Shown here piece by piece: positions 3,001 through 35,086 of a stretch of 64,000 bases of DNA. A program made the translations under genes and the position numbers. How positions within the stretch are numbered: position 1 is the stretch's first letter; the number at the start of each line of letters is the position of its first letter. This DNA comes from Medicago truncatula (Eukaryota; Streptophyta; Magnoliopsida; Fabales; Fabaceae). The stretch lies in assembly GCF_003473485.1 (NCBI RefSeq), contig NC_053048.1, positions 47,985,755 to 48,049,754 of the forward strand, given 5' to 3'. The notes under the pieces were generated by a model that was not told the DNA's origin, made no database searches, and saw only the letters and a program-made list of their open reading frames with translations.

Positions 3001-5108
3001 CTACAGGAGAGAAATAATACCAAATTTGATGAAAGAATGGTACGAAACTTTTTTACTAATAAAAACCTTGATAGAGCATAAAACCTTTTGAATATTTTTC
3101 AATGTTGTTTGACAAATGAAGCAAAAATGAATGCTAGATTGGGATCTACTTACAATAATCAATGCGCCGTAAGCATGCATGTTTTGGGTTGCTGTGTTTG
3201 GATTACAGCTACTCAAACTGAAGCATGCTTCAAAAATGAAAAAAAAATACAAAGTAAGGTTTTGATGTGATATTGTTTTAATCAAATAACTAAGTAGAGC
3301 ATGTAACTGCATGCGATAGTTGAACCATATTGCTAATTTCTAATAGATGATTTGATGAATCTTGCTAAATTCATCCTGCCAGTTATGCTCTCATGTCTAC
3401 ACTCATATTGACGAAATTAAAATACCATGTAAAAATTTATCATGACAGTGCATCAAAATTAATCTCAAATTTATTTAGAAAAAAAAAAAATTAAAACTTA
3501 CGATTTTGATGAGTTGAACCCATCCTGCAGTAATATCTGAAATGGGAGAACATGATACTAGTTAGTATGATCACAATGGAGTTCTTTTAGGGACATTATC
3601 TTTTGCAAGTTAATAATACCCTTAATACCCTTTATCGCAAGAAACTTTGCTCGTTGGAGAAGGACAATATGATCCTGGAGAACAGAAGATATTACTATTG
3701 TTGACAACACCAGACCAAATATCAGCACTACCACAAGTATGATTTGTTTCTCCTGCAGGAATTTGGTAACTATAACTGCAAATTCAAATTTTTTATACAT
3801 CAAATTAGTTATTGTTGCATGACTAAGCATTAACAAAACAACTCAGAAAAATACAAAGGAACATTAGAACTTACGGATCGCATACTCCAGTTATTGGATT
3901 CAATTTTGCAAGTGGACAATAAGAACCAAGTGGACATGCTTCATTAAGATAAGAAAATAACAAAAGTTAAAAACATTTTACTAAGATAAAACAATAAGAT
4001 GCATAAGATACATACTTACTTATCATGCAAGTTAATCCTTGAGGACAGAAAAACCCTTCACAACAAGGTTGACAATCATCAATTCTTGAAGGAATATCTT
4101 TTATATCATTTTTGAGATCAATTCTCTCAGCAGCACTACAACTCCAACCAGGTTCACAACCAGAACCCCATGAAGTCAAGTTGCAATTTATGTTAGGTTT
4201 TACATAACTTGCAGATGTGCCTTGTTGTAGGAAAAAACTCTGAAAGTAGTACCTTATTTCAGCAGTGGTACACATTCTGTCTCTAAAATCACCTGTCAAA
4301 TTAAATCAAAATGTATTTAGGAATTCATATCGTTATCTCAGGGTCGGGCTCAACATATATTTGGGCCTAAAGCAAACTTTGAGGCGAAGTCTTTCTGTTA
4401 TGCAAGCTGGACTGTAGTATATAACCTCAAGTTGTATTTTTGTAAACCCTAAACTTGAATAATAGAAAGGTACTGCAGTCGGAGATGTAGGCGCAATCGG
4501 CCAAATCGTGATCAAATGCCGTGTGTTCTTTGTTTTTGTTTTTGTTTTTCACATGTTATATTTTGAATTGATATTGCTATTCTAACACATTCTGAAGTAA
4601 GGCCTCATGAAGAATAATAGTATATAAATGAAACGAAAACAAATGGCTCATGTATATACCTTTTTGCTTAACACAAGCATCTACAAAGTCCAACTTTCCT
4701 TTAAAATCAAAGGCTTCCTCCCAATCTTTATTCCTGAAAGATGGTCAATTAATTAATTAATAACTAAGAGTCTAAGACAAATGCGAAAAATTAATTAATT
4801 AAATTATGAATACATAACACATACACATCCTTTATGCAGAAACCTAAATCTTCCTTGATGTTTCTTGTTAAAGTGATAGTAAGACCTTCAAGCTCTTTGT
4901 AGATTTCTTCTGTGTAAAGCGAAGGTGCTAAAGGTTTATCTTTATCTGCACATTGAATCTGTGGTAGTAGTAGCAAACTTGTGAAGGTAAAAATGGACAA
5001 GAATAAAATGTGAGAGACCAATGAGGCCTTCATCATCATTCCATTCATTTCCATTGTAACATCTTGTGAAGGTATTGCTTGATCATGAAGCAAGGCATAA
5101 TGTGCCAT
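1..5108 (-). CDS. ABC transporter G family member, ABCG24/ABCG28-like (3' end outside window)
   Basis: Half-size ABC transporter of the plant WBC/ABCG group with an extended N-terminus, predicted in the plasma membrane or vesicles; substrate unknown. Exons on the minus strand: 4825-5108, 4660-4733, 4020-4292, 3875-3938, 3629-3775, 3502-3536 (35-nt microexon), 3154-3227, 2153-3000, 1400-1696, 778-1266, 552-700, 1-276 and onward outside. All phases agree, giving about 1003 codons here. Seen: hydrophobic signal/anchor near residues 28-53; Cys-rich extracellular region (residues about 150-315); a TM segment; a basic linker; Walker A GPSGAGKT (about 532-539); signature SGGQRKR; Walker B LLILDEP; then the first ABC2 membrane segments. 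The final membrane segments are missing because the window ends. The first ATG is used, but internal Met codons at 5054 or 5048 would put the signal peptide at the N-terminus. Family call is sure; the exact orthologue is not. Confidence 0.9.
4478..4555 (+). repeat. Diverged copy of the repeat in the kinase intron
   Basis: GGAGATGTAGGCGCAATCGG followed by GTGATCAA and GTGTTC matches the spacing and core words of 10190-10262, and is followed by a T-rich (GTTTTT)n run. It sits in an ABCG intron. Probably an old retroelement end. Confidence 0.35.
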
Positions 5109-5312
5109 GAATTGTTAACATGGTGATCAGAAAGAAAAGAAACAAGGAATTACAGGATTAATGCAGGGAAAGATTTTGATTTTGTTGATTGGTGTTTTTT
5201 GGTCAAATTGAAAATGGTGTGAAGAAATGGAGGAGAGAAATGAGAGGCTTGATTGAAGGATGTGCATGAATTGGAGACTTATTGCTTCAGCTGATCTCAA
5301 AATCAATTTCAT

Positions 5313-6966
5313 TTTATTATGAGGAAAAAATGTTCTGTAGTTTAGGCCACTATATGGAATATATATACTGCTATATATAATTAATTAATTAGAACAATTT
5401 TAATTTTTTATGTTATATTGATTCATAACTACATGAATAGGTTTTAAGTTTAAGACGTGTCAACTAAATGGTAAGAGCTTGAATTTATAACGTCAAAGTA
5501 TATGGTTTAAATTCCACCTATGTTGTAAAATGTTCATTAATGGCATCGCTTTTAATAATAATTTCAAGATAAACATTTGATTTTAAAAAAAAAAATACTA
5601 ACTGATTTATTTTATACCATTGTCACTCAGTTACATTTTAGAGTGAAGATGAATTTTAATCATTTAAAAAAACCGTAATAAAAAATTGGGACAACTCAAG
5701 AAAAGAATAATTATGTCTGTAACAATAATCAAAAAGAGATAATTTCATTTACAATAAAAAAAATGTTAATTAAAAAATTACAAATTATTCATGAATAAAT
5801 CATCCATTTTTATTATTTTTCTTTTGTATTCAATCAAATAATTGCAAAGCAAGATTATTCATATAAATATCAATTATACATGTCATACGAGAATTATTTA
5901 TTTTTTCTTCTTTTTTCTTCTATTCACGTTAGACACGCATTAAACACATCTATAAAACATATAGATGTGTATGTAAGGTTAAAGATATTAATAACTTTAT
6001 TTACATCAGTTTTAACTTTTCGAAAGCAAATAGACGAATGCATTCTTTTCCTCAATTTAGATATTTTATTAATAAACATTTATATTTTAACAAGGGAATT
6101 TCTACGGTACACTTACAAAGTGAGGTGTACCGATACTATTGCTTTATAATTTTATAAATTAACGATAATTTTTTATGATATAAATAGTTATTTGTTAATA
6201 TTTATATTTTATAGAACATCATTTCATAAGAAAAAAACATCATTTCAAATTGTTTATAAGAATCATAATAATTTTTTTTACATATTATCATAAAAAATAA
6301 TCAATGTTTTCAATTATGAGTGATAAAAATTCAAAAAAAAATTATTTTATTTCATTGACACTTTTGATGAATAAGATTTAGTTATTATAATTATAAATGA
6401 TAAAAAATAATATTTTTCTTCAAAAAAACAACTAATTTAACTATTAATTTAAAGAGTAAGTGTACCAATAAACTTAAATATATTATTTGTACCATAGAAT
6501 TTGTCTTTTTAATAAATGAATAAATAAGTAAAGGGTTGTGTTAACCGGTACCCCTGGAACAGTGGTTAAGGTATCTAACAAAGGAAAAATTTAATAAAAA
6601 AAGAGATTTTTTTGACTTTTGTAACTTGGAACATCGGTTAACATTTTCCATAAGTAAAGAGGCCCTTCCTTCCATAAAAACAAGGGAAATGGAGGGAGAG
6701 GACCAATTTTTTCTTTCATTCCACGAATACACGGTTTTCTTTACTTTTCTTTACACGGTTTGGTGAAACACTTGAACTGAAACTACTAACGTGCAAGAAG
6801 CTGAGTACAACGTCAAGGGTGCTTCCCTATTTATTAGTTTGGTGTACTTTTGTTGTTTTCTTTACTTTTTCAGCCAACTACCAACAAGAAAAAAAACTAT
6901 ACTACGGTAAAAAAAATTAAGCTAATTCACACGTCACACCCTTTGACTTGGAAATTAGATAGATTG
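5313..6966. other. AT-rich intergenic region upstream of the ABCG gene
   Basis: About 1.6 kb of AT-rich sequence between the divergent upstream side of the ABCG gene and the Mutator-like element at 6967. I see long A/T runs and no convincing coding exon, RNA gene or clean promoter motif. It must contain at least part of the ABCG promoter. Confidence 0.5.
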
Positions 6967-7330
6967 AGAGAATTGTTGTTGACACATTGCATAAGACTGC
7001 GGCACATAAATAAAATACATTTTTGCTTCTCGGTAGTTAACTGCAGAAGAATTTAATAATCGGGTGTAGTTAACTGCCGAGGAAAACTTCGGTAGTTAAC
7101 TGCCGAGGATCTTCTGCTACAAATCTGGAGGAAGCTCTCTCATCCATTATTCATCTCATCTTCCAATTTTTTTTTTCTTCAAATCTTTCTAAAAAACCCA
7201 ACCAAATCCAACCAAATTTATTCAACAAAATCACAAGTAAGTAATTATAATGCTATTAAATTACATTTTAGTTGTTATAAATGTTTTTATTTTTTAGTTT
7301 TTGAGTAGATTTATTTTATTTTTGTTTTTG

Positions 7331-16772: not shown

Positions 16773-16853
16773 TCTCAAGATAATCGATTCGATTATGCGA
16801 ATCAGAAAAGGCTTGATTGAAGGTTGAAGATACACTTTTGAGGATGGAACAAA

Positions 16854-17309
16854 TTGTTGTATTTGGGTGTCTGGCACCCTCCAATCTTCCATTGGATCAA
16901 GTGCAACACAGATGGCTCAGCAACCAACACGTCATCATCCTGTGGTGAAATCTTCAGGGACAAAGACGCTAAGTTCTTGCTTTGCTTTGCTGAAAACACT
17001 GGTATTGGTAGTGCATACCATGCTGAACTTTCAGGGGCTATGAGAGCAATAGAGATTGCAGTGCAGCATCAGTGGACCTCTCTCTGGTTGGAATTTGATT
17101 CAACCCTTGTTGTTAATGCTTTCAAAAATCACTCCCTCGTTCCTTGGAGACTCAGAAACCGCTGGACTAATTGTATGCTTAGCATCAGCTCCATGAACTT
17201 CTTGGTAACTCATATATATAGAGAAGGTAATAGTTGTGCTGATGCACTAGCTAATTTTGGTCTTTCACTTGATACTAACTATTTGGCTAGAGATCCCTAT
17301 GTGCATTAG
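16854..17309 (+). pseudogene. LINE-type RNase H domain fragment
   Basis: The reading frame begins upstream of the W-PP---WIKCNTDGSA motif (first catalytic Asp), continues with the E of YHAELSGAMRAIEIA, a VE-like LWLEFDS (Asp), and ends REGNSCADALANFGL (final Asp of the DEDD set). This is the RVT_3/RNase H domain at the C-terminus of plant non-LTR retrotransposons. No reverse transcriptase lies upstream; the preceding sequence is the RPA1-like pseudogene. The T-rich run after the stop (to about 17450) looks like a LINE 3' UTR. A 5'-truncated insertion, not a host gene. Confidence 0.8.
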
Positions 17310-17459: not shown

Positions 17460-18780
17460 CACTTAAATGATGTGGATTGCCACATATGCATTGACTTTAG
17501 TCAAAATTGATACAAAAGAAAAACCGATACTATTAATTTGTACAAATCAAGTTAACTCCCCATTACTTAGGATAATCCTAGTTTGTACGAAAGAAAAATC
17601 GATGAAAGCGAAGAACAACGCTATGTATTATCCGTGATTTCCGCTAACAGCCTTAATTATATCCATTTTTTTTTTTTAGCAATTATATCAATTTATTATT
17701 TAAATAAATATATGTAATTGTCAGTTTGTGCTCTCTCGTGTGTTTTCGTGGTGGAACATGTCGTTCCATTTAGCCACAAAGGTGATTGGAGTTGAAAAAT
17801 AATAATAATATAATAATAATAACATAATTTTCCCATTCCACACAATTCAAGGGGGCGGTCGAAATTAAAATTAGTGAATTATTATTAGCAGGAGCACCGT
17901 GCATAACTTGTTTCGTCAAAATTCGTTTTGGAATCGTTCGCACATAGTAGAATTGCACCTTATATCATTACTTTTTTTTAAGTCCATTATTTAGTTTGTT
18001 TTCTATTTATTTATTTTAGTGGGTAAACGTGGGTTGTGGGCATATTTCATATTTTTTTTATTTCTCTTTTAATTTAATTAGTGGTAAAAAGAAAATATGT
18101 GATTTTATTTACTAATAATTGCACTTCATCAACGTCCTTGCTTTTACATTGAAACATAGTATGCTCTGTACACCAGTAAAACATAGTATGCTCGTTGCAT
18201 GTAACTAAAATCATAGTAGTTTGTTAATTTGTTTAATTGTTCAAATACTTCACAATCTAAACCCTGTTTTCTTTTTATCTTTTTGCAATTGATATACATT
18301 AAAAGTACACTCCAAAAAAGTATAGTAACGTTTTTTTTTTTTTTTTCTTTTTTTCATTAAACCTGTACTAGACGTACAATGCACGAGTGAATTCTAAGGG
18401 AATTTCATTTTGAATATCTCTCATATTATTTGTTTAAACAATAAAATATATTTTGAGTTTTAAGAGATTACTAATGGTAACACTTATATTTTTATTGTCT
18501 CAAAATAACTGAGTCATTTGCAAAAGAAAATATTGTCTCGAAGTAATTGATCTATTTCATTTTTCAATATAATATTAATTACTTTTTTTCAATTATAAAT
18601 TTAATTAATACTACTTTCACCACTTTTGATTTATTATAACTCTAAAGATTTGTAGTTTAGAAATTAAATGGGTTAGTCCAAGTGGTTTTTTTTATGTTAA
18701 AGGGAGTAACTTCATAATAACTTCATTGTTGTCTAAGAAACTAGTGCCAATACTTAAACACACAACTTCTATGAAACTTA
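17460..18780. other. AT-rich repeat-laden intergenic region
   Basis: Poly-T and poly-A runs, a short (AAT)n tract near 17801-17821, and a small direct repeat of AAACATAGTATGCTC near 18155 and 18178. I see no exon or RNA gene. Confidence 0.5.
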
Positions 18781-18783
18781 AGG

Positions 18784-18915
18784 CTCCGTTTGGATTGATA
18801 GACGGAACGGAGTGAAAAGGAACGGAATGGAATGGAGAGGAACATAATGAAATGGAGTAGAGAATTCATTCTATTGTTTGAGTATTCTATGATGGAGCGG
18901 AATAAATTTACCTTC
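18784..18915. repeat. Dispersed plant repeat, GGAACGGAATGG type
   Basis: AGGCTCCGTTTGGATTGATA then purine-rich GGAACGGAATGGAATGGAG words. This is the end of a family of TIR elements common in plant introns and intergenic DNA; a relative starts at 62390. The right end was not located. Confidence 0.5.
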
Positions 18916-19176
18916 CCATTATTTGAAAAATTAATAGGATGAAATTAGTTATAACTTTTTATTTCAATTTTACTCTAATATTAAAATATATAATTATAAT
19001 AAAAAAAGTTGAAATCTTCCATTTCTAAACTGAATTAAGAGTATAATATAATAGGATGAAATGCTTTTATTTGGGATAAGTAAGAGGGGGGTTTTAAACA
19101 TGTGGCAAATTGACTTTAGTCAAAATTGGTATGGGTGAGTAAATACAATACAAAGGTGAAATGGTTGTTTACCTTA

Positions 19177-20479
19177 GGACGGTGTATTGAATTGGAATTT
19201 CATGAGATTTTAAAAGCGTTTTTAAAAATAAAAAAGTTTTGTGGTATTCAATCAAGATTTTTATTAAATATAAATAAATCTTGTGGTATTCAATCCAGAT
19301 AATCATGACTTTTTGTTCAGGGCAACGAAATCTGGTGGTATTCAAATGAGATTTTGACTGACTTAAAAAAATGTCCGGTGGTATTCAAAAGTATATAGAT
19401 TTTAATAGATTCTTTTATAGAGTGGATTTTGTAAGACTTTTTAACTAAAAATACACATAACATGTTCATTCAACAATCTCACAAATATTCTTGAGACTTT
19501 TAGAGACTCCCATAATTTTTGTTTTGTTCTTCATACCACACTTACACCTTTTTCTTGTTATTATTCATACGCCCTCACTGCTGTTATTCTACTGTTATTC
19601 CTTGTTCACCATGCTTATTTATAAACCTTTTTCTTGTAAACGTTACAAATTTTTTAAACTTATTACATTCACAGTAAATATTACAGATTTTTAGTTTTAC
19701 GTTTTTGTTCCTCTCAAAAAAAAAAAGTTTTACGTTTTTGTAAGTCAATTTTTTTTCTTCTAATTTATCATTATTTGTTTTTTTTATCACACTGTTTTGT
19801 TATTGTTAGTATACCAAACATTACTTTGTAACAGTTTGTTTTTTTTTTTTTAAGCAAAGGAAACTTGCCAAAGAAGCAAGCCCGAAGATGTATTATAAAA
19901 AGTTAAAAAAGATACAAGAAAAGAGGGGGGACAAACAACCAAAACCCTCCAAAGATTAACAAAACCTAAAGTAAGGCAACCCTAATCTATTTCTGATATA
20001 GGCTTCTCCAATCTGATGAGGAACATGATTCCACAAAAAATGAGTATTCAAACTAAGACCTATATTAGCCAATTGATCAGCACAATTGCCTTCCTTAAAG
20101 ATACGAGCGACAAAGAAAGACATTCTAGTTTGTTATTATTATTAGTAATATTAATATTTTTATTTTATGTTTATTTTGAGTAAAAAAAATTTGACAGTAG
20201 TAACTTGTTATTATTAGTCAATTTCATATTTTAAGTTCATAATTTTTTTCATTCCCTCTTGTCATTTTGAATTTTTCTTAAGAATTCATGTGATCCTCTC
20301 AAATCTTAAAATTTCATAAAGTCTATTGAAATCTTTATAAATCTGTGTTATAAATCCATTAAAATTTGGTGTTCAAAATTTTGATTGTAAGAAGTCTTTT
20401 AAAATCCGATAAAATCGTCTTTTAAAATCTGCAAGATTTTGTTTGCCAAAATAGTCTTTTGAAATCCCAATCCACCCCC
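19177..20479. mobile_element. PIF/Harbinger-type TIR element with TTA target duplication
   Basis: The left end GGACGGTGTATTGAATTGG and right end read inward GGGGGTGGATTGGGATTTC form imperfect TIRs. TTA flanks both sides (19174-19176 and 20480-20482), the 3-bp TSD expected of PIF/Harbinger elements. The interior repeats the words GTGGTATTCAAT several times and has no transposase. A LINE fragment is inserted in it at 19841-20126. Confidence 0.6.
19841..20126 (-). mobile_element. 5'-truncated LINE 3' end with poly-A and 8-bp TSD
   Basis: Read on the minus strand, 20126 to about 19970 encodes the tail of an RNase H domain (KEGNCADQLANIGL), a short C-terminus and a stop, then a 3' UTR and a poly-A tract (poly-T at about 19841-19850 on +). 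The flanks AGTTTGTT occur at 19833-19840 and 20127-20134. This is classic target-primed insertion, nested in the Harbinger-type element. Confidence 0.8.
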
Positions 20480-20609
20480 TTACTTAAAAAAAAATAAAAA
20501 AAAATATACCAATTCAAATTCGCGAAGAACAAAAAAAATTGAGAAACCCTAATTTGAGAAGGAAAAAGCTGGGTCGATTGTTGTGATTTTCTGTAATTCG
20601 ATTACGGTT

Positions 20610-22864
20610 ATGGGTAAAGGAGCTAGTTCATCATATTCAGGTGGTGATTATAGCTTATTGAGTTTGATTGATGAAATGAATTCGAAATCGGCGAGGGCTG
20701 GTAGGGCTGCTGCTGAGGCTGAAGCTTTTGCAGCTGCAAAAGCAGCTTCTATAATTATTGAGAACCCTATCCGTGCTCCAATTTGCTCAATGTTGGGTCA
20801 TATGGGGAGTGGAAAAACTACGCTGCTGGATTATATGCGTGGTAAAGTAGTTCCTAATCCACCTCCTTCTAATTCTACTATAACTAATTCTGCCACATAC
20901 TTTGAAATGATACCCTATCATCAATCAATCAGACTTCCTGGTTTACTCTTTATTGACACCCCTGGCCAACCACTTCTCACTGTTTCAAGGTCTCTCTCTA
21001 CAGCTCTATGTGATATTGCAATCCTTGTTGTTGACATTAATAAATACACCTTACAACCACAAACTGTTGAATCAATCGATCTTTTACATAGCCGCAACAA
21101 ATACTTCATTGTTGCCTTGAATCATATTGATCAGATTTCTGGATGGAAATCATTTCCCAATGCTCCATTTCGTAAATCATATCACCAACAGTCTTCTGAT
21201 GCTCAAAAACTTTTCTCATCTACCTTTAGAAAGATTATTGCTGAGTTCAAACAATATGGGATAAAAGCTGATATGTTTCTTAATAACAATGATATCCTAC
21301 GACAAACTGTCAGCATTGTGCCTACTTCTGCAATAAGTGGCGAAGGACTCTCAGATATCAAATCAGAATTGATTAAGTGGACCCAGAAAACTATGCTTAA
21401 TCAACTTACATACACGGATCAGTTGCAGGTTACCTATTATTTATTAGTAATTATCATTCCATGTTAAACCATTACCTTATTCTTATTTGTTTGTATTGTG
21501 CCTGCTAGTGTACTGTTTTGGATGTCAAGCTCCTTCAAGGCCATGGAACCGCTATCAATGTTGTTTTAGTTAATGGTGTTCTTCATGTAGGAGATCAAAT
21601 TGCTCTATGCGGAACTCAGGCAAGCTTCTTTCATTCTATTATCTTTTTAATAATACTTACTTACCTTCTGCCTCTCCCTAATCAACTTTCTATTCTAGGG
21701 CCAAATTCTTACCTCAATTCTAGCTTTATGGACAGCTCTTCCACACAAGGAACTTGACGCTAAGGTACCTACCTACATTTATTTATATCTTTTGTGTGCT
21801 TAGCATGAAGGCTCTATCTGTGGGAACTCAAACCCATTGCTAAACCTCTTTTAAATGGTAGTAAACTTTCTGAGTTGAGGTTTTGACCAAGACCAAGAGG
21901 TCTGGAACTTAAACCCATTTGGAAGTTTAGGTTAAAAGTAATAATATCCTATCCTCATCCATGATTATAATCTAATATGCATTCTTTTAACTCTTGTTCA
22001 CCAATTATGATATTCTGCCGTCTAACAAAACTGACCTTAAGATCTAGGCTTCAAGGCAATAACATCTTCACAGTAAACTTTGTTTGACTACTATGCCTGT
22101 ACCATGCGTCTTGCTCTTCTGGTGCGTGACTGCATGCAGCCCCTCTTCAAGCTATGAAAAAGCATTTTAGTTTTCATGACGTGTTGAAATCCATATTTGG
22201 GATTCGCTCACTCATATTTCATGTTAGTTATTGAAATTCTTTAAGTGGTGATCGATCCCTCTTGAGATTATGTTCAGACTTGCCAAAAACCATAAATGTT
22301 ATGTTCCAGCTAGCATAGTCGTTCATACTTCATATTATGGAGGGTTATCCAATCATATAAACTATGTCAATTGACAAATAGTTTCTTGCACATTACGAAT
22401 CTTATATTACTGGGTTGAATGAATGAGAACTCCTCATTGATGTATGCTATTGGCAATTGCCAATTATATCTTTGCTGTAAATACAATGAACTCCAGCATC
22501 CAGATTTATCTTCTTCTATGTAATGGTGGTATAATTTCAGGCTCATTATATCCGGCACAAAGAAATCAAAGGTGTGAATGCTGTCAAGATCCTTGCCAAG
22601 GTACATCTTTGGGATACTGACTTCATTATGCCTTTTTTTTCTTCTTTCATATGTTTTTATATGTTTCGATAACCAAAGTTATGGTATGATTTTTTGTACG
22701 TAATATTTCAGGGGCTTGAAGATGCTATTGCTGGCACTGATTTACAGGTGCTGAAGCGTGGCGATGATTCAATAGATATTATCAGTCTTGAGCAGGAATC
22801 AAAAGATGATTCAGAAGATAATATCCTAAAGGAAATACTGGAGGCTATGAAAGCTGAACTCTGA
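20610..22864 (+). CDS. Short eIF5B-like GTPase, 402 aa, altered G motifs
   Basis: Homologous to the G domain and domain II of translation initiation factor eIF5B (IF2 family), which joins ribosomal subunits. Exons 20610-21428, 21509-21619, 21699-21764, 22541-22600 and 22712-22864 all join in phase. Residues: N-terminus MGKGASSS (fits an N-myristoylation pattern), an Ala-rich helix, G1 GHMGSGKT, G3 DTPGQ (family DTPGH), G4 NHID (family NKVD), G5 SAIS, then domain II (CTVLDVKLLQGHGTAINVVL). It ends in an acidic tail and lacks domains III and IV and the long charged N-terminal extension of eIF5B. Intron 2 has a GC donor (GCAAG). The ATG at 20610 follows a 5' UTR. The frame is intact, so it may be expressed, but its role in initiation is doubtful. 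Confidence 0.85.
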
Positions 22865-23744
22865 AACGCATAGTGGCCATACTTAGCTAAAATCCTTTCA
22901 CGTCACCGTGTGGCAAACATTTCAATGTTTTGAATCTGCTATGATCCCTTTACCTTAAAAGATTTATTTTATTATCTATCTATCTCTCAAACGTTATACA
23001 AATTATTTAGCTAAAGATGCTCATTGATCCGTTGAGTTTGATGTTAGGGACAAGTGTAAATGTTATATTTACCTATATTTGAGATATTGTCATTTTTGTA
23101 GTACTAGTACGTTGTTTCGGTGTTATGTTAGGGTTCGACTTGTTGCAAGAGTGATTCCAAGTTTCCAATACTCACATTAGAGAACAAGTTTTCTTTTTTA
23201 GTTTTTGATATGCACATATAACATATGTTTTACCGGACGCTTTGAGAAAAAACACAACAATTTTCACTTGAATATTTTGCACATATATTAGTGAATAATG
23301 TATGAAATAAAACACAAGTACTAGTTAAAACAAAACATGGACATCGTAAAAATGACTATATGTTCACATGTGAATCGGTGTTTAAATTTCAGGGTGAAAT
23401 TTTAATGATGAGTGTCAAAATTCAACTCATATTAGTTTTATTTTATTTTAGTATAAATTTTAAGGTTCTTGTTGACCAGTGCTCTTAAGGTAATGGTTAA
23501 GGGATTTATAAATAGAAATTTTATCTTGAAAATATATATAAGATGTTACTTTTGATCAAGTAATGGTTAGACAACTTTTTTATTAAAACTTATTTATTTT
23601 GGATGCTTAACAAATGCCCTTGGGGCACTAGTTACATTCTCCAAATTTTAATTGAAAAAAAAGTGTATTAAAAAGTATGTTTTTAAGAGTATGTTGCTAA
23701 TGGTATTTAAATATCGACTATGGAAATTGCCATTACTTATCTAT

Positions 23745-24701
23745 TAAGTGTCTGTTTGGTTTGGCTTTTGTACATTTAGAAGCAATTCTACAACATTCTA
23801 ATATGTTTGGTTTGCCTTTTCATAATTGCTTCTATCCTCCAAAAACAATTCTCCATAAAGCTACAATTCCTAGCTTCTGACTTTTCTAGAATCAATTCTA
23901 CACCCTCAATTCCATCACTGCCCTCTTAATTGTCATCAATTACATCATTGCCCTCCTAATTATCATCAATTTCTCTAACCCTTTCTCCAACCACATCGAT
24001 TTTTTTTTACGTGAAATCTTAATTAGTATTATACTTTAAATTATTATATCAATATTTTAGTACTATGATACACATTAAATTAGTTTTGTAATAATATTTT
24101 AATACTCTATTGCACTTTAAATTCTATTATCTATTTCTAATTTTTATTTTCATGCTTTTAGTATTCTAATAACTTATATTTTAGGACTATATTGTACTTA
24201 ATTATCTTAATTTAGTAATTTCTATTTCTTTGTATTTATTTCCAGATTTGTTGTATTTTTTTCTTTTACGCTACATTTTATCATTTTTGCCAACCATCTC
24301 TATTATTATTTTCTTTAAAAAAACTATTATTATTTAACTTAAATATATTTTATCATAAAAGAACAAATATTTTGTCAAAAAAAAATTGGTTTAACGATCT
24401 ATTTATTATTTTTTAAATTAATATATAGAAAAAATTATTTATTTACATTAAATAATATATTTACATTGATCTGCACATACATTCAACTGTTATGTCCAAT
24501 TATTTTTATTTAGCTATGTCCATTTTAGTAATTATACATTCAAAAGCAATTTTGATCAAAACTATCCAAACAACATTCATTCTCTTTAATCAATTCTACG
24601 TTATCGTATTCAAACATAAATCAATTATCTTAAAATCAATTCTGATGGAATCAATTCTGTCATAATCAATTCTATCCAAAGCTGAACCAAACACACCCTA
24701 A
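23745..24701. mobile_element. TIR element, GTTTGGTT type
   Basis: The left edge (TGTCTGTTTGGTTTGGCTTT) and right edge (inward GGTGTGTTTGGTTCAGCTTT) are inverted matches. Both arms are filled with AAT(C/T)AATTCT words. The interior is AT-rich with no ORF. TTA on the left and TAA on the right do not form a clean duplication, so the superfamily is left open. Confidence 0.55.
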
Positions 24702-24957
24702 CTCATGATACAAAATTTTCAAATAGATATATAGATTTTTTGCTTTTATTGGAAAGCAGACCATTCAGCAAAAGGGGAACTGTTTATAAGATACACTAAA
24801 ATGATTGTAGCAGTGTTTTAAAAGAACTAATTTATGAGAATACAACTCCAATATCACTACCATGAATCCTTGTGAGAATCTAGCAGCGATATTACTGGAC
24901 AAGGACAAAATATCCAAACCGTCATTTTTCCATCCAAACTCAACCCCATTAACCCGT

Positions 24958-25213
24958 GGGCGCGGTTATGGTGCATAAGAAAATCTTTATGCATCCTGCA
25001 TAAATTTAGAAATGGTTTCTGTGAGTTGTACTCCAAAACCATTAAATGTACTTAATGGTTTCCAGCATACTGCATAAGGATTTTTAGCACCCTGCATAAA
25101 ATTATGCCAAAACCATTTTGCTGTGGAAATGGTTTCTGTGAGTTGTACTCGAAAACCATTTCTAAATTTATGCAGGGTACATAAGGATTTCCTTATGCAC
25201 CATAACCGCACCC
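24958..25213. mobile_element. Mutator-type MITE, 256 bp, perfect 9-bp TSD
   Basis: The ends (G/C)GGTTATGGTGCATAAG are inverted arms of about 62-70 bp. The flanks are TTAACCCGT at 24949-24957 and 25214-25222, identical over 9 bases. The interior holds two direct copies of a block with TGGTTTCTGTGAGTTGTACT. It lies about 640 bp upstream of the SIG6-like start codon. Confidence 0.88.
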
Positions 25214-25856
25214 TTAACCCGTGCCCTAGATACGTTAGTTAAACAATTAAAAATAAAATAAAAAGACAAATTTGACATTGAAAATAGCTTTTTTTTTTTA
25301 AAATTAAAAAGTATAATATACCATTTTTAAGATAACATTTTTTTTTTGACAAAAGATAACATTTTCCTTTGTTTATTGTAAATAAAATTAATTTAAAATT
25401 TAAACTTATTTTAAAATAGTTGAATATAAAAAATGATATGACATTAAATAATTAGAGAATAAATACATTTCTATGAAAAGTTGAGTATATTCAAGATGTT
25501 CACCTAAAAGAGTAGATTTACAATCACCTTGATAACTCGTGGGGTTCATTCCCAAAACACAATTGCAAAATTGGGGCTCGACATTCATTGTGGGCTTTAG
25601 AACCCGATCTGTGCACTGAGTGACCCAGTTTCATTCTAATATAATCTAATTAGATTGAGAAATGGAAAGAATATCTTTCTTTTTCTTCTCTGAAGAAGTT
25701 GAGGTTGAGCGTTAAAGTGTGGAAAACAAAACCTTTTTTTTTTGTTATCCATCTGATACCTCCTTATTCTTCGGAAAGTACAAAGTAGAGAAAAACATAC
25801 ACATACACATACATAGTTGTATCTAACTACTAAGGAAGGAAGTGAAGAACAACACT

Positions 25857-28800
25857 ATGTTTTCTCCGTCTACACCATTCCCTTCTAGAATTCTTCCTTC
25901 CCCTTCAGGTACTGTACTGTTGTTTATGCTTATGTTGTTATTCTAATTCTGTTTAATTCAAGATATTTTGTGCAGTTATGATGCCTCCTCATGACCAAGC
26001 TGCTCCTGCACTTTCTTCTTGGCCTACTACTTTTCCTACCTCCGTTCTTTTACAAGAGCATCGCGATGAGTATAAGCCGCTACTTCATACGTGTAATGAA
26101 GACAACAAACCACCCCAGGTTCACATTTTTACTTGTAAAGAAGACAGTGTAATGTTCAATGTTCTTTTTATCTTTTCTTTCTACATTATCAATTTATCTA
26201 CTATTTAGGCAACCTTAAACACAAGGGTAACAGATATGACCTCTATTTGTGAGAAAATCATTACCGGCGATGGCGATGGCGATGGCCATGTTGATGTGTC
26301 CGTGCATAACTGTATGCATCAGTTGCATCTTCGGTGTCATTTACAGAACTTGTAAGATATATTTGATTAGCACTCATGCTTGCACAACCAAAGTTGTCTC
26401 TTTAATAGATTTTGTATATTGATTACTACAGATTGGCTTCTTCACCTGAAGAGGATTTTGTTTCTTCTTCTTCTTCTTCTTCTTCTTCTTCAACTATGCT
26501 GCCTGCTGATGGTTTCCAATGGGATGCACTTACTCTTGCTAAGCAAGCTCTATCAGCCTCAAAACAAGCCGCTGCAGTTGCTCAAGAGTTGAAATTGGTT
26601 AAAATTGACGATGATGATTCACTACCTCTTGGGTTAGTTCTAGCTTTGGCATCCTTGATTTGGCTTTTTATCTGTTTATATGTTATTTTGTTGAGAATCA
26701 TGCCTAAAATTTGCGATTCAGACTGGCCGACTCTTCACTTGGAAAGAACAAAATCGTGAGGTCAATACGGCTTAAAGAAAGACGATCTAAACAGAGAAAA
26801 GTGTCTAACTCAAAAGTTCTCGATGACGAAATGTACCTTACTAAAAAGTCCAATGTACAAAGAAGGTTACGTTTAGAGAAAAAGTTGAAAGAAGGACTTG
26901 ACGGAAACCATGCTCTGCGCTTGTTCTTATGGAGTCCTGAAACAAAGCAACTTTTGAGCATTGAAGAAGAATCTCAATTGATTGCTCAAATACAGGTGTC
27001 ACTCAGAATTCCATATTTCATTAAAATGTTTTGTTGGTTCAATTAAGGATCTTCTTTGCCATAATTTGTTATATGCAACAGGATTTATTTAAATTGAAAG
27101 AAACAAAGATCAAACTTCAGTCTCATTTTGGAAGGGAACCAACTTTGGCTGAATGGGCAGATGGTGTGGGCCTTAGCTGTCGTGACCTTCAGAAACGACT
27201 TCATTGTGGTAACAGAAGCAAAGATAAACTGATTCATGCCAACTTACGCCTGGTAGTTCACATTGCTAAATATTACCAGGGGCGTGGTCTCAGCCTTCAG
27301 GACTTATTGCAGGTATCGTCACTACCAATGGCTGTTTAAATTATTTCTAAACAAAGAAAAACCTCAAGATAAATGTTTGGCTAAAGTTGGAGCTGCAGTT
27401 GTAGGAGAAAATCTTCTGTGAAATGATCTCTATTATTTATTTTTTTAGAACTGTTGCAGTAATTATCTTAATGGCGTGATTAACAACTACATCTTTAACA
27501 TTCATTTTCTGATGGTAATATCATAGGAGGGAAGTATGGGCCTTATGAGGAGTGTCGAAAAGTTCAAACCCCAAGCTGGTTGCCGGTTCAGTACTTATGC
27601 TTACTGGTGGATAAGGCAAACAATAAGGAGGGCCTTATTTCTGCATTCCAAAACAATTCGTCTGCCGGTAAAACCAATCTGTTCATTTCCTTAACTAGTT
27701 TTCTAAAATCTTGGGTTTGTTTACTTTCTAAAAGTGTTGTTCAGTTTTCATTTTTTAAAATTTGTCTTCGTTTTAAATTGCTAGGAAAGAGGGTGAAATT
27801 CTCATGTAATGAACAACTGTGATAGAGAAAAGATGGAAGGCAAGATAAGAATAATGTATTTTTAGAACAATGAGTACAGTGTTTTAAATAATTGTAGAAG
27901 AAAATATTAAATCTATGTTTGTTAGTTGAAGGGGAAATGAAAACAAGAAACATGAGAAGTAAATGGGTCCCAAGCTTTTCTCATTTTGAAGTGTGGATTG
28001 TCGGTAGACATGAAATTGTTGTATATGGACATCCAATAAAATAACTACCATTGCATTAATTTCTTTTTAATATGTTATTTGTAATAAAGCAAACATCGAT
28101 TCTATTTCTGTAACATGGTATCAGCATATTATTTTCAGGAGAATTTCTACGCCCTTTTGGGCAAGATTGCGGAAGCAAAGAAATCATACATTAAAGAAGG
28201 AAATCTTCACCCCACCAAAGAAGAAATAGCAAAGCGAGTAGGAATTACAGTAGATAGGTTGGAAATGTTGCTATTTTCTACAAGAACTCCACTTTCGATG
28301 GAGCGAGCTGTATGGGCAGACTCGGACACAACTTTCCAGGTAGGGCCTTTTAAGTAAATATCAATTTTTCCCTGCAATGATGTCACTTACTAGATCTAAA
28401 AATTGAAAACAGTGAAAAGGAAACATATGTATTGATATAGATTGTTTAGAGCAGCTGAATGTTGTTCAACTCCCCATTTTGTACTGGTGAGTGGCGAGTG
28501 TCTATACCGAGTTTTTTGCTTGCGCTGATAACTGTTTAAACATATTCGAGGATATCTAATTTCAAAAAAGCCAAAATGTAATTGACTACAAGAACCATCT
28601 CAAATTTGCACAAGTATTAAGTTCTGTTGTGGGTGATGGAAAGCAACAATCAGCAGCAGCCAAAAGTTTCTTTTTTAATGGTATGAGGGAGATGCTAGAT
28701 CATATTCCAACAATTTATATTAGATAAACCTGGGAAGCATAACATACTACCATAAACACAAGGGTATCAAGCAAACTGAGTAAACTAGTTAAACAAAGCC

Positions 28801-30205
28801 AGGTGGTTTGGTTTTGATTTGGTTTCATTCATCATTCTTTTGGTTTAGTATTTTGGGAGTAGCTGAACCAAATCATATATTTAAGTATGTTTCTCTCTTA
28901 ACCATATATATACATTGTATAGGTATTAAGTCTTGTGAAATGCGATGTTGGTCTTGTTTAAGGTTGATCCTCAGGTTAAACTAGATTAAATCATCAACAA
29001 AACCTACTAAATATGCATGTGGCAGTGATTGGACTCAAGTCGCACAACTCTATTTTGTTCCTTACAGAAGTTGGATCATTTAAGTATTGACCTGTTAATA
29101 TGCACCTCTTTATGGTATGCCTGTTTTTGCAAGTGACGGAGTGTTGGGAGATAAAATGGCAGCACGAAAGTAAACTCAATATAACAGATGAGAATATTGC
29201 ACTGTATGTGTTGAAATACTGAAAAGAGATAGGATTACGGATGGCAACATTAGAGAGAGTCGGGGTCGCACTTATCGTAGAAAAGATGCTTGAATCTCGA
29301 CTTAGGTGGTTTGGGCTATGTGAACTAGACCTGTAAATTTATGTAATAGAGAGAGTAGATCAAATATAGGGTAACCCATTCGTTAGACATAGCAAGACCT
29401 AGAAAAACTAACTGTTGGAGAAACTATCTAAGAAAGTGATAGATCTTTGATAGATGAATAGGAATAGATAGAATTATGGAGATGGTACTTGAATTATTAT
29501 TGAACTTCTCTGGATAACTTTCCAACAGAGTGGTTACACAACAGGGGAATTACAACATGATGTAAACATAATTAATAAATTAACTGCTGCAATTTAACAA
29601 TTCCTCTAGAAATTAGAGAGCCTAGTCTCTCCCAGGGTAATCCAACATAAAGAATCGAATCGTAGTAAACGTTCATCCTTATTCTATTTAATACATGTAA
29701 GTGAACTATATTAGGCCTTGTTTATTGGGCCTGCTAGAGATATGATCCATGGTAGAGCAAGTGTATGATGAGTCCATGACACAGTTTGATCTTTGTAACC
29801 GACCTCACATACGGGTATAATGCTTGCTTGTCGTTATTGCTTAGATACTACTAACAGGCTAAGATTCTTTTGTATTATGAATGTTCCAAATTGACCAAAA
29901 CCTTATTATAATTTCAGGAGATTACTGCAGACTCATCAATTGAGATCCCAAATGTATGTGTTGCAAAACAACTAATGAGGAGCCATGTACGCAACCTCCT
30001 AGGTATTTTGCCTCCAAAAGAAAGGAAGGTACTCAGGCTAAGATTTGGTATTGAAGATGGTTATGAGAAATCTTTGACAGAAATTGGCAAGGTGTTGGGT
30101 GTGTGTAAGGAGAGGGTCAGACAATTGGAGAGCCAAGCGTTGAACAAGCTCAAGCAGTGCCTTGTTAGTCAACAACTTGATGCATATGTAGACTTAATAG
30201 TATAG
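25857..30205 (+). CDS. SIG6: Plastid RNA polymerase sigma factor, SIG6-like, 557 aa
   Basis: Sigma-70 factor that directs the plastid-encoded RNA polymerase; SIG6 acts early in chloroplast development (known for Arabidopsis). Exons 25857-25908, 25976-26118, 26209-26351, 26432-26632, 26722-26995, 27082-27312, 27527-27667, 28139-28339 and 29918-30205 join in phase. Seen: Ser/Pro-rich N-terminus fitting a transit peptide, with VMMPPHDQ and [14 protein letters not shown] as in SIG6; poly-Ser run; region 1.2 (about 244-271); region 2 with [34 protein letters not shown] and [14 protein letters not shown] (-10 recognition and melting); region 3 (about 396-462, [10 protein letters not shown]); region 4 helix-turn-helix [20 protein letters not shown]; ending AYVDLIV. 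The best match from memory of the family is SIG6 rather than SIG1-5. Intron 8 (1578 nt) carries a LINE scar. Confidence 0.93.
26461..26489 (+). repeat. (TTC)n microsatellite coding poly-Ser in SIG6-like exon 4
   Basis: About nine TTC/CTT triplets read in frame as a run of ten Ser, just before a conserved block. Length changes here would stay in frame. A second triplet-type run, (GATGGC)3 at 26270-26287, codes Asp-Gly repeats in exon 3. Confidence 0.85.
29229..29460 (+). pseudogene. LINE reverse-transcriptase C-terminal scar in SIG6-like intron 8
   Basis: One frame reads [19 protein letters not shown], then after stops and shifts RVDQI and KKVIDL. In plant LINE-type reverse transcriptases the usual order is [20 protein letters not shown], then K-DLE. 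Several stops show it is a decayed fragment. It does not overlap any exon. Confidence 0.55.
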
Positions 30206-33067
30206 TTGATCAATAGCATACACCAAGGTTGAGCAATTATATTGATTATCGTATATATATATATCATATTTTAGATTATGAATATGTGATAATAATTTTG
30301 ATATTCATAAGTATATATTTGATAGAAAATGTGATACATTACTCGAAAAATATACATTACTCGAAAAATAAGGTGATAAAATGAAATATCAATTAATTTT
30401 TGAGTTATATAAATTTGACTAACCTAGAAGAAATACGAGTATGTTTGAATTGGCTTATTTGAGTGTATCTTTTGACAAGCTCTAATGGAACTATTTGGGA
30501 GACCTTAAGAAAATAATTTATGGCATGTTTATATGCAGTTAGTATTTTAATAAACTGTGAAGCTCTCCATAATAGTCTTTAAAAACGATTTATAGTTCAT
30601 ATGAAAAAAGGTTGATTTTACTTGATTTTTGTTACAAAAATAGCTTATACATAAGCATTTATATGAAAACGATTTATAGTTTATGCTATAAGCCTTTAAT
30701 AAAGCTATTTACACAAGCACGGCAGTAATCAAATAACCTATACACAAGCATGAAAATACATTGTTACAGTATTTGCTTATTTGCTTATCTCTTCAATTCT
30801 TATTTACCATACTCTTACAAATATATATGTGATAGAATTTTTTTGAACAAATATACGTGATAGAGTTTAAGTTATACTAGACTTGTCTAAATTTCTATAA
30901 GGTAATCAAATGACATATACACAATTAATATCATGTCTTCTAGATTTATGAATGTTATGTTTACGAAGATTGATTTTGTCATCCAAAAAGATCTAATGAA
31001 GTAGTTTGTTATATGCCTACCTTCTATTTATATGTATGTAATTCTTGATATATATATATATATATATAATCTCTATCCATGTAGAAAAAAAAGTCAAAAG
31101 AAAGGTAAAAGTGGTTTACAAATATCATTGTTTTGTTTATTCTCTTGTATCTTTAACCATAAAATTGACAACCGTTAAAATATCATGACCATACAATTTT
31201 GATCGGACAGCTTAGATGCTTTACAGCACCCTGTTGTTAGAGCAGGAAATCTGCTTCCCTAACCTTATCATCCTTAAAAGGAAATTTATACATCTTTTCA
31301 AACCAAGGCACTAAAAAGCTCATAGTATTAATTGGATTATTCTACATGTAGGGCCCTCGTAAAAGTGGTATTTTCAAACCTAAAAAAGGCTATTCAACTT
31401 CAAGACAAGCTTCTTGTCAATAAAAAAACTTCAAGAGAGGCTAAGCACTAAACACACATGATAGGTCCTATGAAGAAGACATCAAATTTTGCATGTGACT
31501 TTCTTGTAAGTCCACCTTCCTATTATCTTTGGCAAAAACATTATGGTTCATGCCAACATTAATGTCACTTATTAATGATTCAAAACTACAAATGATTGAT
31601 AAATTTTATGTTGAAAAAATTACTTTTTGTTGTTTCAATGTGTTGAATGCACAATTTCTAAAGTAAAGTTTTCATTTTAAATTTTTTATCAAGTGTCCTT
31701 GCTAACATTTCCCAAACATTATTAGATTCCATAATTTGGGATATGGCTATCAACTTGTGTCCACATCACCAAGCTCTTCAAATTTTGCTTTATTATCATC
31801 ACACTGACCCCAAATGAACCTATAATTGAGTTCATCAAACATAAAGTTTCTCTCAATTTTAATTCATATTCTCAAATAAGTAGAAGAGGAATCTTAAAAT
31901 GCCAAAAGATGAAATAGTTGAGCACGCGGGAGACATTATGTGACTAATGACCCGGACATTACATATGTATCCTAATTCATCAAGGAAATTTCATGTCATT
32001 GTTTCCATAGAAACAATAATGCAACTAACTAGAAGAAAAAGTTAAACCCCATTATGCTTATATCTACTAGATTTTAACAACAAAAAACAATTCTTAAGGG
32101 ATCAAGTAGGAACCATAAATATGCAGTTTCCACCAGCCTTGTCCATCTTATTGCACATATGAGGCATTTACATTTGATGGGCCAGTATTTGTATCCTTCT
32201 AAGTAGGCAAATGAGTAAGTACTGAATGAAACATTAGCTTTTAATCCCAAAATTCTTTCTCACTCTTAAAATAAGAGATAAGTTATTGTCCAATTTTTTT
32301 TATCATTATTTCCTTGTCTTTTTTTTTTCTTTCTATGGACATTATATCCTTATCTTGTGCATCTAATATTTAGAAGAATTTAATTTTTTTTTAGTGTAAA
32401 ACTAGCATGGAAGACATCATTACGATAACTAACACATCAATCAACTATGTTGGTACCCCGCCTACCATCTATCATCAACAACACACTAATAATATATTAT
32501 ATAAATAAAGAAAAAAGAACAAAAAGGCGAGGGGAGACGAAACCAAAACTCTAGCCTTTGAAACCAAAACTTTGGAAGAATTAATCCCTTCCAATGAAAG
32601 TCATCCTAATAACAAATGGACCAATGTCCCACCAATAATAGTCTAGAAAAGAAATTTCATAAGAAGTGATTTTATTGACACCGCCAACCTAAAGAATTTT
32701 ATAATAACAACTCTTAACTTTAATCATAAGTACTTTTAAATTCACAAATGTGATATGTTATTTTTTTTTTTTGACGGTGTACAACTTTTTTACACTATCA
32801 ATATTAAATTCCATTTAGAAAGAAGATTTCAACACAAATTGAATAGTACAATGATAATTTCTCTTTCTAACTTCCACCAAAAAAAATATACCTTAGCATT
32901 GGATGAAATTGAATTAGTACTACCTAGGAGTGGTAAAATTTGATATTTGGCAAACCTAGGCCCATTCTATTTTCATACGTTTCTGACAACTGGTGATTTT
33001 TCAATAGTAACAGTCCATACTTGATCTAGAAGTGTACTACCATAGATAAAATTTTCTTCTTTGCTTC
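30206..33067. other. Intergenic region between SIG6-like and RTFL-like genes
   Basis: 2.9 kb, AT-rich. Holds (AT)n runs near 30252-30265 and 31050-31069, and a dispersed repeat (30530-30725) built on CTTATACATAAGCA and ACGATTTATAGTT words that is related to 53320-53480. No exon or RNA gene recognised. Confidence 0.5.
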
Positions 33068-33083
33068 TATATATATATAAATA
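33068..33083 (+). promoter_or_regulatory. TATA box of the RTFL-like gene
   Basis: TATATATATAAATA lies about 85-98 nt upstream of the RTFL start codon and 25-40 nt upstream of the first upstream ATG at 33108, so transcription would start roughly at 33100. Position and match are good; no experimental support. Confidence 0.55.
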
Positions 33084-33107
33084 CCTATAGTGGAACCTGA
33101 AGCTACC

Positions 33108-33185
33108 ATGCTTCTTCCACTTTCTACCACTAGATTCACTGCTATATGCCAGAAGAATATCATTCATGGCAGTAAAGGAAATTAG
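33108..33185 (+). other. Upstream ORF overlapping the RTFL-like start codon
   Basis: ATG at 33108 (ACC before it, so A at -3) opens a 25-codon frame starting MLLPLSTTRF and ending at TAG 33183-33185. It overlaps the RTFL ATG at 33166 in a different frame (+1). If the transcript begins at or before 33107, most scanning ribosomes could be diverted past the main start. Confidence 0.5.
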
Positions 33186-33360
33186 CAGCACAAGGAACCA
33201 AAATAGTACTCATCAGCATCAAGAACAAGAAGGGTGTGATCCGTGCAAGTCTTTTGGCCAAAAGTGTAGTCACTTGGTCAAGAAACAGCGTGCAAAATTC
33301 TACATTCTTCGCCGTTGCATCGCCATGCTTTTGTGTCATCATGAGCGTTCTGAGCATTGA
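33166..33360 (+). CDS. ROTUNDIFOLIA-like / DEVIL small peptide, 64 aa
   Basis: A member of the DVL/RTFL family: small plant peptides at the plasma membrane whose over-expression limits cell proliferation along organ axes (known in Arabidopsis). The conserved RTF domain is at the C-terminus: CSHLVKKQRAKFYILRRC then IAMLLCHHE. The N-terminal 30 residues are polar and variable (Gln/His-rich), as usual. Single exon. The main ATG has a weak -3 (T) but a good +4 (G), and an upstream ATG with A at -3 overlaps it. The frame is intact and the length (64 aa) is within the family's 40-150 range. The nearest neighbours are SIG6-like on the left and repeats on the right. Confidence 0.88.
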   Translation: MAVKEISSTRNQNSTHQHQEQEGCDPCKSFGQKCSHLVKKQRAKFYILRRCIAMLLCHHERSEH

Positions 33361-34680
33361 GAAGCAAACCAAGGTAGATGCAAGAAGTTAAGATTAAGAC
33401 TAATTAATTTAAGAGCTAGGAGATTAATGTTGCATTATTATCTTTTTATTTATTTTATTTTGTATTATTATTATTATAAGGTTGTAACATAATGAGGGTA
33501 TTATGTCATACTGGAAATTGTTGGTTTATAATTTTTGTTATAGGATTTGCATTTATGTGTAAATTACATGCAGCTGCTAACATGTGAAAGAGATTAGATC
33601 TGTTTCAATTTTCACAACTATTGAGTAGATCTTCTTTTTCAGATGCTATAAGTATGTCTTTGAAACTCACACTAATGTCATTTTCTTTTATTATCTTATG
33701 CTTTTCTTCTTATTTTCTTATTATTTTTCTTTCGGTTCATCACATGGTAAGTTGAAATTATCCATGAGATTCTTTATACTCCATTTTCAGATTTATGTGC
33801 ATAAATTAATTAGTTTTATACATAATCATTGTTTCTTTTTATTCCCACAAAGACCTCTTCCTCTGAAGAGGTTTGCAATTAATTTGTGTTCTATTTTATT
33901 TCTTGCTTCTCGGTTATTCTGATTTGGTTTTTTTTCTTAGACATAGTTCTCATGGAAAATAAATATGTAATTTATTATTCTAAGTTAATCATTTTAATAA
34001 TGTTAATATTTCTCAACTCTATTTTCTTGGTGACACTATTGCAAGTATATGCATAAATACCAACTAATTTAACACCCAAGAAGGATGAAACCATGTGGCT
34101 ACTGAAATTTTCATTCAACTGCCAAGCTTTTGAACAATGTGAAAAATTAATTAAAACTAACTTTATTAAATAAATAAATAAATAGTTTCTACTTGCTGAT
34201 ACAGGGTAAGAAGGAGGCATAAGATAGCACATATAGTATTTATTGATAAACAATCAAACATCCCACACATCTTCAAAATCTAATATGATTAATCATTTTT
34301 CATAACAATGGTCCTAGTGCTAAGGAAACATGAGACAAGATCAAGCCTCATTTTAAATTTATTTTTTTGGGTCCATAGTCACATATATCCCATTATATAT
34401 CTTTAAAAAAATCTTATAATATTTTGTGTCTTTAAATTCCACAGACTCTTTGTTAAATGTTTCGATCCAACCAACAAACAAAATTCAACATCATATCAAG
34501 CTCAGATTAATAAAATAATTTGTTGTGTAGTAATAATGTACTACTACATCACACACTCCCTAGTCCCCACCTATTAATAAAATTTTAATTATTATCAACA
34601 AAAAACACTAGACATGCATTAATTGATGAGCAAATAAAGACAAGCTTCTTTAGTAACAGCAATATTAAAATATAGACTTT
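33361..34680. other. Downstream region of the RTFL-like gene
   Basis: AT-rich, with T-rich stretches and no exon recognised. Includes the likely 3' UTR of the RTFL gene and ends at the TIR element that begins near 34681. Confidence 0.5.
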
Positions 34681-35086
34681 TATATGTGTTTAGTCCTTTA
34701 AATATGGGTCATTTAAAAAATTGTCTCTGTATATTCCTTAATCCACGCATTTGGTCCTCCCAAAATTAAATCATTTAAAATTTGGTCCCTCCCACTTAAT
34801 CACTGCCACGTTACTATATTAGCTGATGTGGCACTCAGCAAAGTTTGGTGTGAAGTGACAAAAATACCCTTAAGTAATTCCGCTTCCCTCTGATGGAAGG
34901 AGAGATATTTTTGTCACTTCACGCCAAACTTTGCAATTAAGTGGGGAGAGGGACCAAAAAAATTTTTAAGAAAAGAGAGGAACCAAATTTTAAATGATTA
35001 TATTTTGGGAGGGAAAAATGCTAAGATCAAGAAATGTAAGGACCATTTTTTAAATGACCCCTATTTGCATAGGCTAAACACATATA
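34681..35086. mobile_element. TIR element, TATATGTGTTTAG type
   Basis: Inverted ends TATATGTGTTTAG (right arm read inward is the same), followed in both arms by GGGTCATTTAAAAAATxGTC and AATxATTTAAAATTTGGTxC. The arms are about 110-150 bp and diverged. No clear target duplication was found. Noncoding. Confidence 0.65.

Follow-up and report, generated by a model that had tools for sequence, protein, structure and literature searches.

A short, frame-intact eIF5B-like gene of Medicago truncatula with altered hydrolysis residues, tentatively read as a GTP-binding pseudo-GTPase

In eIF5B (HOT3/eIF5B1 in Arabidopsis), a member of the IF2 family, domain II anchors the factor to the 40S subunit, and the hydrophobic-gate residues Ile438 and Val414, His480 and the helix-12 residue Tyr837 act jointly, according to PMC6983393; in the Chaetomium protein, PMC4509514 has Asp533 and Gly555 hold a monovalent cation. 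The latter source also describes yeast Ski7, a translational GTPase duplicate derived from Hbs1, in which the catalytic His is replaced, the GTP-binding motifs are mostly kept and stable GTP binding was measured. In Arabidopsis, AT2G27700, AT1G76820, AT1G76810 and AT1G21160 are given as homologues of AT1G76720 (PMC6161759), and AT2G27700 is labelled ‘eIF-2 family protein’ in PMC11352948. We analyzed a window of 64,000 nucleotides (nt) of Medicago truncatula (NC_053048.1, positions 47,985,755–48,049,754), in which positions 20610–22864 of the forward strand hold a gene for an eIF5B-like protein of 402 amino acids (aa). AT2G27700 is a short form, and it and the other Arabidopsis homologues are likened to the 402-aa gene by description. 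Literature searches listed no paper describing this gene or any short plant eIF5B pseudo-GTPase. From its sequence we read the product, tentatively, as a GTP-binding pseudo-GTPase that would act through its G domain and resemble Ski7 in kind, although the parent differs and Ski7 retains domain III, and although GTP binding was measured for Ski7.

Five exons (20610–21428, 21509–21619, 21699–21764, 22541–22600 and 22712–22864) join to 1209 nt, comprising 402 codons and a stop at 22862–22864, with no internal stop codon. All four introns are in phase 0 and have usable splice sites; intron 1 (21429–21508), intron 3 (21765–22540, 776 nt) and intron 4 (22601–22711) are GT-AG, while intron 2 (21620–21698) is GC-AG, with CAG followed by GCAAGC across the donor boundary. 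G+C content is 39–44% in exons and 28–36% in introns. Exon 1, itself intron-free, encodes the entire G domain (GHMGSGKT, DTPGQ, NHID, SAISGEG) preceded by a novel N-terminus of 53 aa; exon 2 encodes the first part of domain II, exons 3 and 4 continue it, and exon 5 completes it and adds a short tail. A solved eIF5B matched residues 54–375 with E about 1e-75, covering homologous G domain and domain II, and because this homology begins at residue 54, the first 53 residues are taken to be new. The G domain scored above the Pfam cut-off (PF00009, 65.2 bits) and domain 2 below it (PF03144, 15.9 vs 30.3). The domain III family PF11987 had six matches in the whole genome and none in the window; a search of window positions 22701–34700 for remnants of domains III/IV came up empty (best E 5.1; canonical control E 8e-104). 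The five in-frame exons, the restriction to a G domain and domain II, and the motifs DTPGQ and NHID, all claimed in the original prediction, were thus confirmed. AlphaFold2 was given exon 1 alone, the spliced protein not being contiguous in the window, and returned a mean predicted local distance difference test score of 32.2 and a predicted template modelling score of 0.20.

The genome (430 Mb in 42 contigs) was searched with exon 1 at E up to 0.001, which gave nine matches, one of them the 402-aa gene itself. Seven of the eight other loci were modelled by a spliced aligner with the eIF5B of locus L018 as reference; the eighth (L015, contig C5) was left out as a presumed organellar IF2, judged from its pairing with another C5 match. 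Two of the seven eIF5B-like paralog loci are complete through domain IV, four are incomplete or broken, and one is a second short form. On contig C1, the neighbouring loci L018 and L019 are unbroken from the G domain, where modelling began, through domain IV. The second short form, L020 (C7:48313500–48321500, about 3000–7260), lies on the same 56-Mb contig as the 402-aa gene at a distance of about 310 kb and encodes 398 aa with no frameshifts or stops; its motifs are GHELSGKT in the P-loop, DTPGF and NQVD. The L020 C-terminus is hydrophobic (best 19 residues averaging 2.67 on the Kyte-Doolittle scale), and a membrane-anchored tail is possible. L021 and L022 retain pieces of domain III and have lost parts of the G domain, and L016 and L017 were broken in forced alignments, with three frameshifts and two stops in the former and one frameshift in the latter. 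The four domain II intron positions, the first of them before Cys-Thr-Val-Leu, and the GC donor of the second are common to all six loci that are intact there (the 402-aa gene, L018, L019, L020, L021 and L022), which argues that the intron model is not a chance reading. The gene is a real, intact, fast-evolving and diverged member of the eIF5B sequence family that is not eIF5B by function on the features tested; with a 402-codon open frame and four usable introns, it is not a pseudogene in the sense of a broken frame or broken splice sites.

Residues of the active site were compared as two sets, 12 standard binding residues of G1–G5 and five hydrolysis-linked residues chosen from PMC6983393 and PMC4509514 (yeast numbers: gate Val 414 and Ile 438, cation site Asp 415 and Gly 437, and His 480). 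The 402-aa gene keeps 11 of the 12 binding residues, the G4 (NKxD) Lys being the only loss, and none of the five hydrolysis residues (Fisher p 0.001, a guide only, as the residue lists were fixed after the alignment had been viewed). The catalytic His is replaced by Gln, the gate Val by Met, the gate Ile by Ser and the P-loop cation Asp by Gly; the P-loop Lys/Thr, the switch I Thr and DxxG are kept, and so are 124 of the 205 sites that are identical in L018, L019 and yeast. The altered P-loop Asp, the two altered gate residues and the missing G-domain introns go beyond the original prediction. The binding and hydrolysis counts were 10/12 and 0/5 in L020, 9/12 and 4/5 in L021, and 10/12 and 1/5 in L022; switch I was difficult to align in L020 and L022, so that p values serve only as a guide here too. 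With His replaced and G1, G3 and most of G4/G5 kept, the 402-aa protein has the pattern of a pseudo-translational GTPase.

The original prediction had rested altered catalysis on DTPGQ and NHID. DTPGQ alone is not proof of dead catalysis: PMC4532990 gives a GTP hydrolysis rate of 174 per second for EF-G H91Q and 202 for wild type; in the mutant, the release of phosphate was slowed by a factor of more than 20. The same source notes conflicting reports for EF-Tu H84Q. Lost hydrolysis is better argued from the joint loss of gate, cation site and His, to which is added that of helix 12 with the Tyr that touches this His; on these summed losses, ribosome-triggered hydrolysis has probably gone. It is quite improbable that the protein is instead an active GTPase in which Gln replaces His as in Ras and which has taken up a new job. 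DTPGQ is the Ras-type motif, EF-G H91Q hydrolyses GTP at the rate given above, and the retained P-loop Lys/Thr, switch I Thr and DxxG would suit such an enzyme, but the protein has also lost the two gate residues, the cation Asp and the Lys of G4, helix 12 with its Tyr is missing, and the sister short form L020 has Phe at the His position.

Under the pseudo-GTPase reading, the G domain of the expressed protein would fold around GTP without ribosome-triggered hydrolysis, and the protein would serve as a GTP-held adaptor for a putative partner. Lacking domains III and IV and helix 12, it would neither read initiator tRNA nor join subunits. Several observations weigh against this reading. A His-to-Gln change can leave hydrolysis intact, as the EF-G case illustrates. 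L022, in which domain III is broken, also keeps just one of the five hydrolysis residues, so that their loss is not special to a functional class. The cation position is Asn in Ski7, which is able to hold the cation (PMC4509514), and Gly in the 402-aa protein; Asp or Asn at this position is a feature of Ski7 itself and not clearly one that defines the kind. The two residue sets were, as said, settled with the alignment in view, and two results of the codon analyses below, the branch-wide ratio and the dependence of the site signal on switch I, count on the same side.

For codon analyses, insertions relative to L018 and stop codons were removed from the alignment, and L016 and L017 were excluded for poor spliced alignments. 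By the Nei–Gojobori method (NG86), the 402-aa gene and L018 differ by a dS (synonymous divergence) of 0.57 and a dN (nonsynonymous divergence) of 0.36 over 315 codons, and 81 codons differ at two or three bases. A branch codon model gave dN/dS of 0.16 for the canonical pair, 0.60 for L021/L022, 0.58 for L020 and 0.86 for the 402-aa gene, the last far from the canonical value (twice the log-likelihood difference, 2dL, 24.0). A dN/dS near 1 had been named beforehand as speaking against function, and the branch-wide value of 0.86, which is not separable from 1 (2dL 0.45), does so.

At the level of sites the outcome differed. A model with all sites neutral was rejected on the branch of the 402-aa gene (2dL 17.4, reached in 0/200 parametric bootstraps, maximum 7.8; 326 codons), and adding a class above 1 improved the fit (2dL 15.3; 0/200, maximum 6.6), placing about 68% of sites at dN/dS 0.3 and 32% near 5. 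These site-mixture bootstraps used a grid fit with other parameters fixed, and the full fit was made separately. When switch I and the neighbourhoods of gaps were left out (256/326 codons), the neutrality statistic fell to 7.0, below the full-set bootstrap maximum and no more than a marginal rejection, and the class-above-1 statistic to 6.2, so that part of the selection signal rests on the least certain alignment; multi-base changes can also inflate the upper class. By domain, neutrality gave 2dL of 18.3 for the 402-aa gene and 15.6 for L020 in the G domain, and 1.1 and about 0, respectively, in domain II (99 codons, low power). Constraint in both short forms is thus located in the G domain, with no sign of it in domain II. 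At fourfold sites the 402-aa gene and L018 differ at 5/27 in domain II and 21/48 in the G domain; the lower divergence in domain II could reflect gene conversion with full-length genes or small numbers.

The original prediction had offered a decoy among other roles, and the distribution of constraint weakens this suggestion. A protein in which the G domain and domain II occupied the eIF5B site and slowed subunit joining is very unlikely here: both domains are present and a form that does not hydrolyse GTP could stay bound, but domain II, the 40S anchor, is unconstrained as far as 99 codons of low power allow, and some of the heaviest change lies in switch I, a segment that takes an ordered form on the ribosome (of the 28 sites with posterior over 0.9, 12 fall at alignment positions 25–55).

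Unconstrained drift was simulated from L018 with base frequencies chosen by the analyst (1000 runs). Over the whole branch it produced a mean of 10.6 stops, and 0/1000 runs stayed free of stops; the stop-free share was 0.8% at t 0.30 (a third of the branch) and 9.7% at 0.15 substitutions per codon (a sixth). Because drifting frames so rarely stayed open over these lengths, constraint covered about two thirds of the branch or more, and the frame is one that has been under selection for most of its history. This agrees with the earlier claim that the gene is not an old pseudogene. It bears equally on the possibility, which we place second, that the gene is a duplicate losing constraint, its frame kept until fairly recently and now drifting with no present function. 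The branch ratio not separable from 1, the unconstrained domain II, the incomplete or broken state of four of the seven other loci, by which decay is common in the family, and the 9.7% of runs that survive the shortest interval all fit such a history. Set against it are the failure of drift to keep the frame over the whole branch or, in all but 0.8% of runs, over a third of it, the rejection of neutrality at all sites, the usable splice sites of all four introns, and insertions and deletions relative to L018 that are in frame except for the one that made the tail. We accordingly rank the pseudo-GTPase first, the duplicate losing constraint next, and the decoy and the Ras-like GTPase last. A bolder version of the first reading, in which a short clade derived from eIF5B has a G domain permanently bound to GTP, a switch I and surface reshaped by positive selection and a job off the ribosome, is unlikely; it draws on the roughly one third of sites with dN/dS near 5.

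Of the seven introns in this region of the full-length genes, three interrupt the G domain and four interrupt domain II; the 402-aa gene lacks the first three and has the other four, and L020, unlike it, keeps all seven. Because the lost introns form an upstream run and the downstream ones are retained, a full-length eIF5B copy may have lost the three most simply via the cDNA of a partly spliced transcript. Within the tail, a 25-nt block on the forward strand (22782–22806) matches the canonical exon 5, where domain III starts, out of frame and displaced by 26 nt; in an ungapped test the match was reached in 1/300 shuffles against L018 and 0/300 against L019, and a longer stretch of tail in a gapped test against canonical exon 5 was not significant (116 and 49 of 1000 shuffles). 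We take the truncation to be a frameshift deletion, since the tail resembles domain III sequence translated in another frame: a net loss of 26 nt in exon 5 would have caused the shift, so that translation stops just past domain II. For the L020 tail, no match could be detected either to canonical exon 5 (178 and 278 of 300 shuffles) or to the tail of the 402-aa gene (915/1000 shuffles). One truncation common to both short forms is therefore unsupported, and that of L020 may be a separate event.

A tree with yeast as outgroup paired the two short forms with 99% support, and an approximately unbiased (AU) test on 334 aligned columns gave this pairing p 0.98 vs 0.02 and 0.0007 for the alternatives. 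On the G domain alone the values were 0.87 vs 0.15, the alternative not being rejected, and support fell to 47% in a half-domain tree that included L016 and L017. Sorted by the order that they favour, 13 residues pair the short forms, nine put the 402-aa gene first and five fit the third order. Long-branch attraction is a possible cause, and the pairing is favoured on the full set of columns; should it be correct, gate, cation site, His and Lys may already have been lost before the two forms split, although each has different residues in their place. Upstream of the start codons, the 5′ flanks of these genes showed no match beyond chance (120/300 shuffles). A pattern scan for relatives in a contig collection nearly devoid of plants gave 24 pattern matches and no relatives.

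Two candidate features around the 402-aa gene were tried and set aside. A telobox promoter was proposed on AAACCCTA at 20544–20551, but the window holds five copies vs 3.0 expected and 17/100 shuffles reach five. Capture by a transposon was considered on the repeats in 18000–26000, where 24 inverted pairs were listed and no long inverted arms flank the gene as a unit; the strongest pair (61 nt at 92%) lies entirely downstream of it. This pair forms an inverted repeat at 24958–25213, with 61-nt arms 92% complementary and 134 nt apart, and resembles a miniature inverted-repeat transposable element. Just upstream of the gene, a stretch of about 1.25 kb (19197–20448) is bounded by imperfect inverted arms, contains a unit ending GGTATTCAA in four copies and likewise resembles a miniature transposable element; it stops about 160 nt 5′ of the start codon. 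Frames at 16842–17309 (forward strand) and 19956–20132 (reverse strand) resemble, by eye, the end of plant retroelement RNase H-like domains, and frames at about 26409–30205 (forward strand) resemble, also by eye, exons of a plastid sigma-70-type factor.

eIF5B ranks among the most conserved translation factors. PMC4342817, a broad survey, reports that species-specific translational GTPase duplicates are common in multicellular organisms and that the IF2 family has a single cytoplasmic orthologue, only the organellar IF2 being free to duplicate; diverged cytoplasmic copies of the family are described there as rare. If the gene were merely a decaying duplicate, it would be ordinary for a plant genome. 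An intact copy that keeps the GTP-binding residues and loses those for hydrolysis would be a natural separation-of-function test of a lone eIF5B G domain, and if the bolder version of the reading held, the short clade would give the IF2 family a pseudo-GTPase of its own, in this plant lineage at least.
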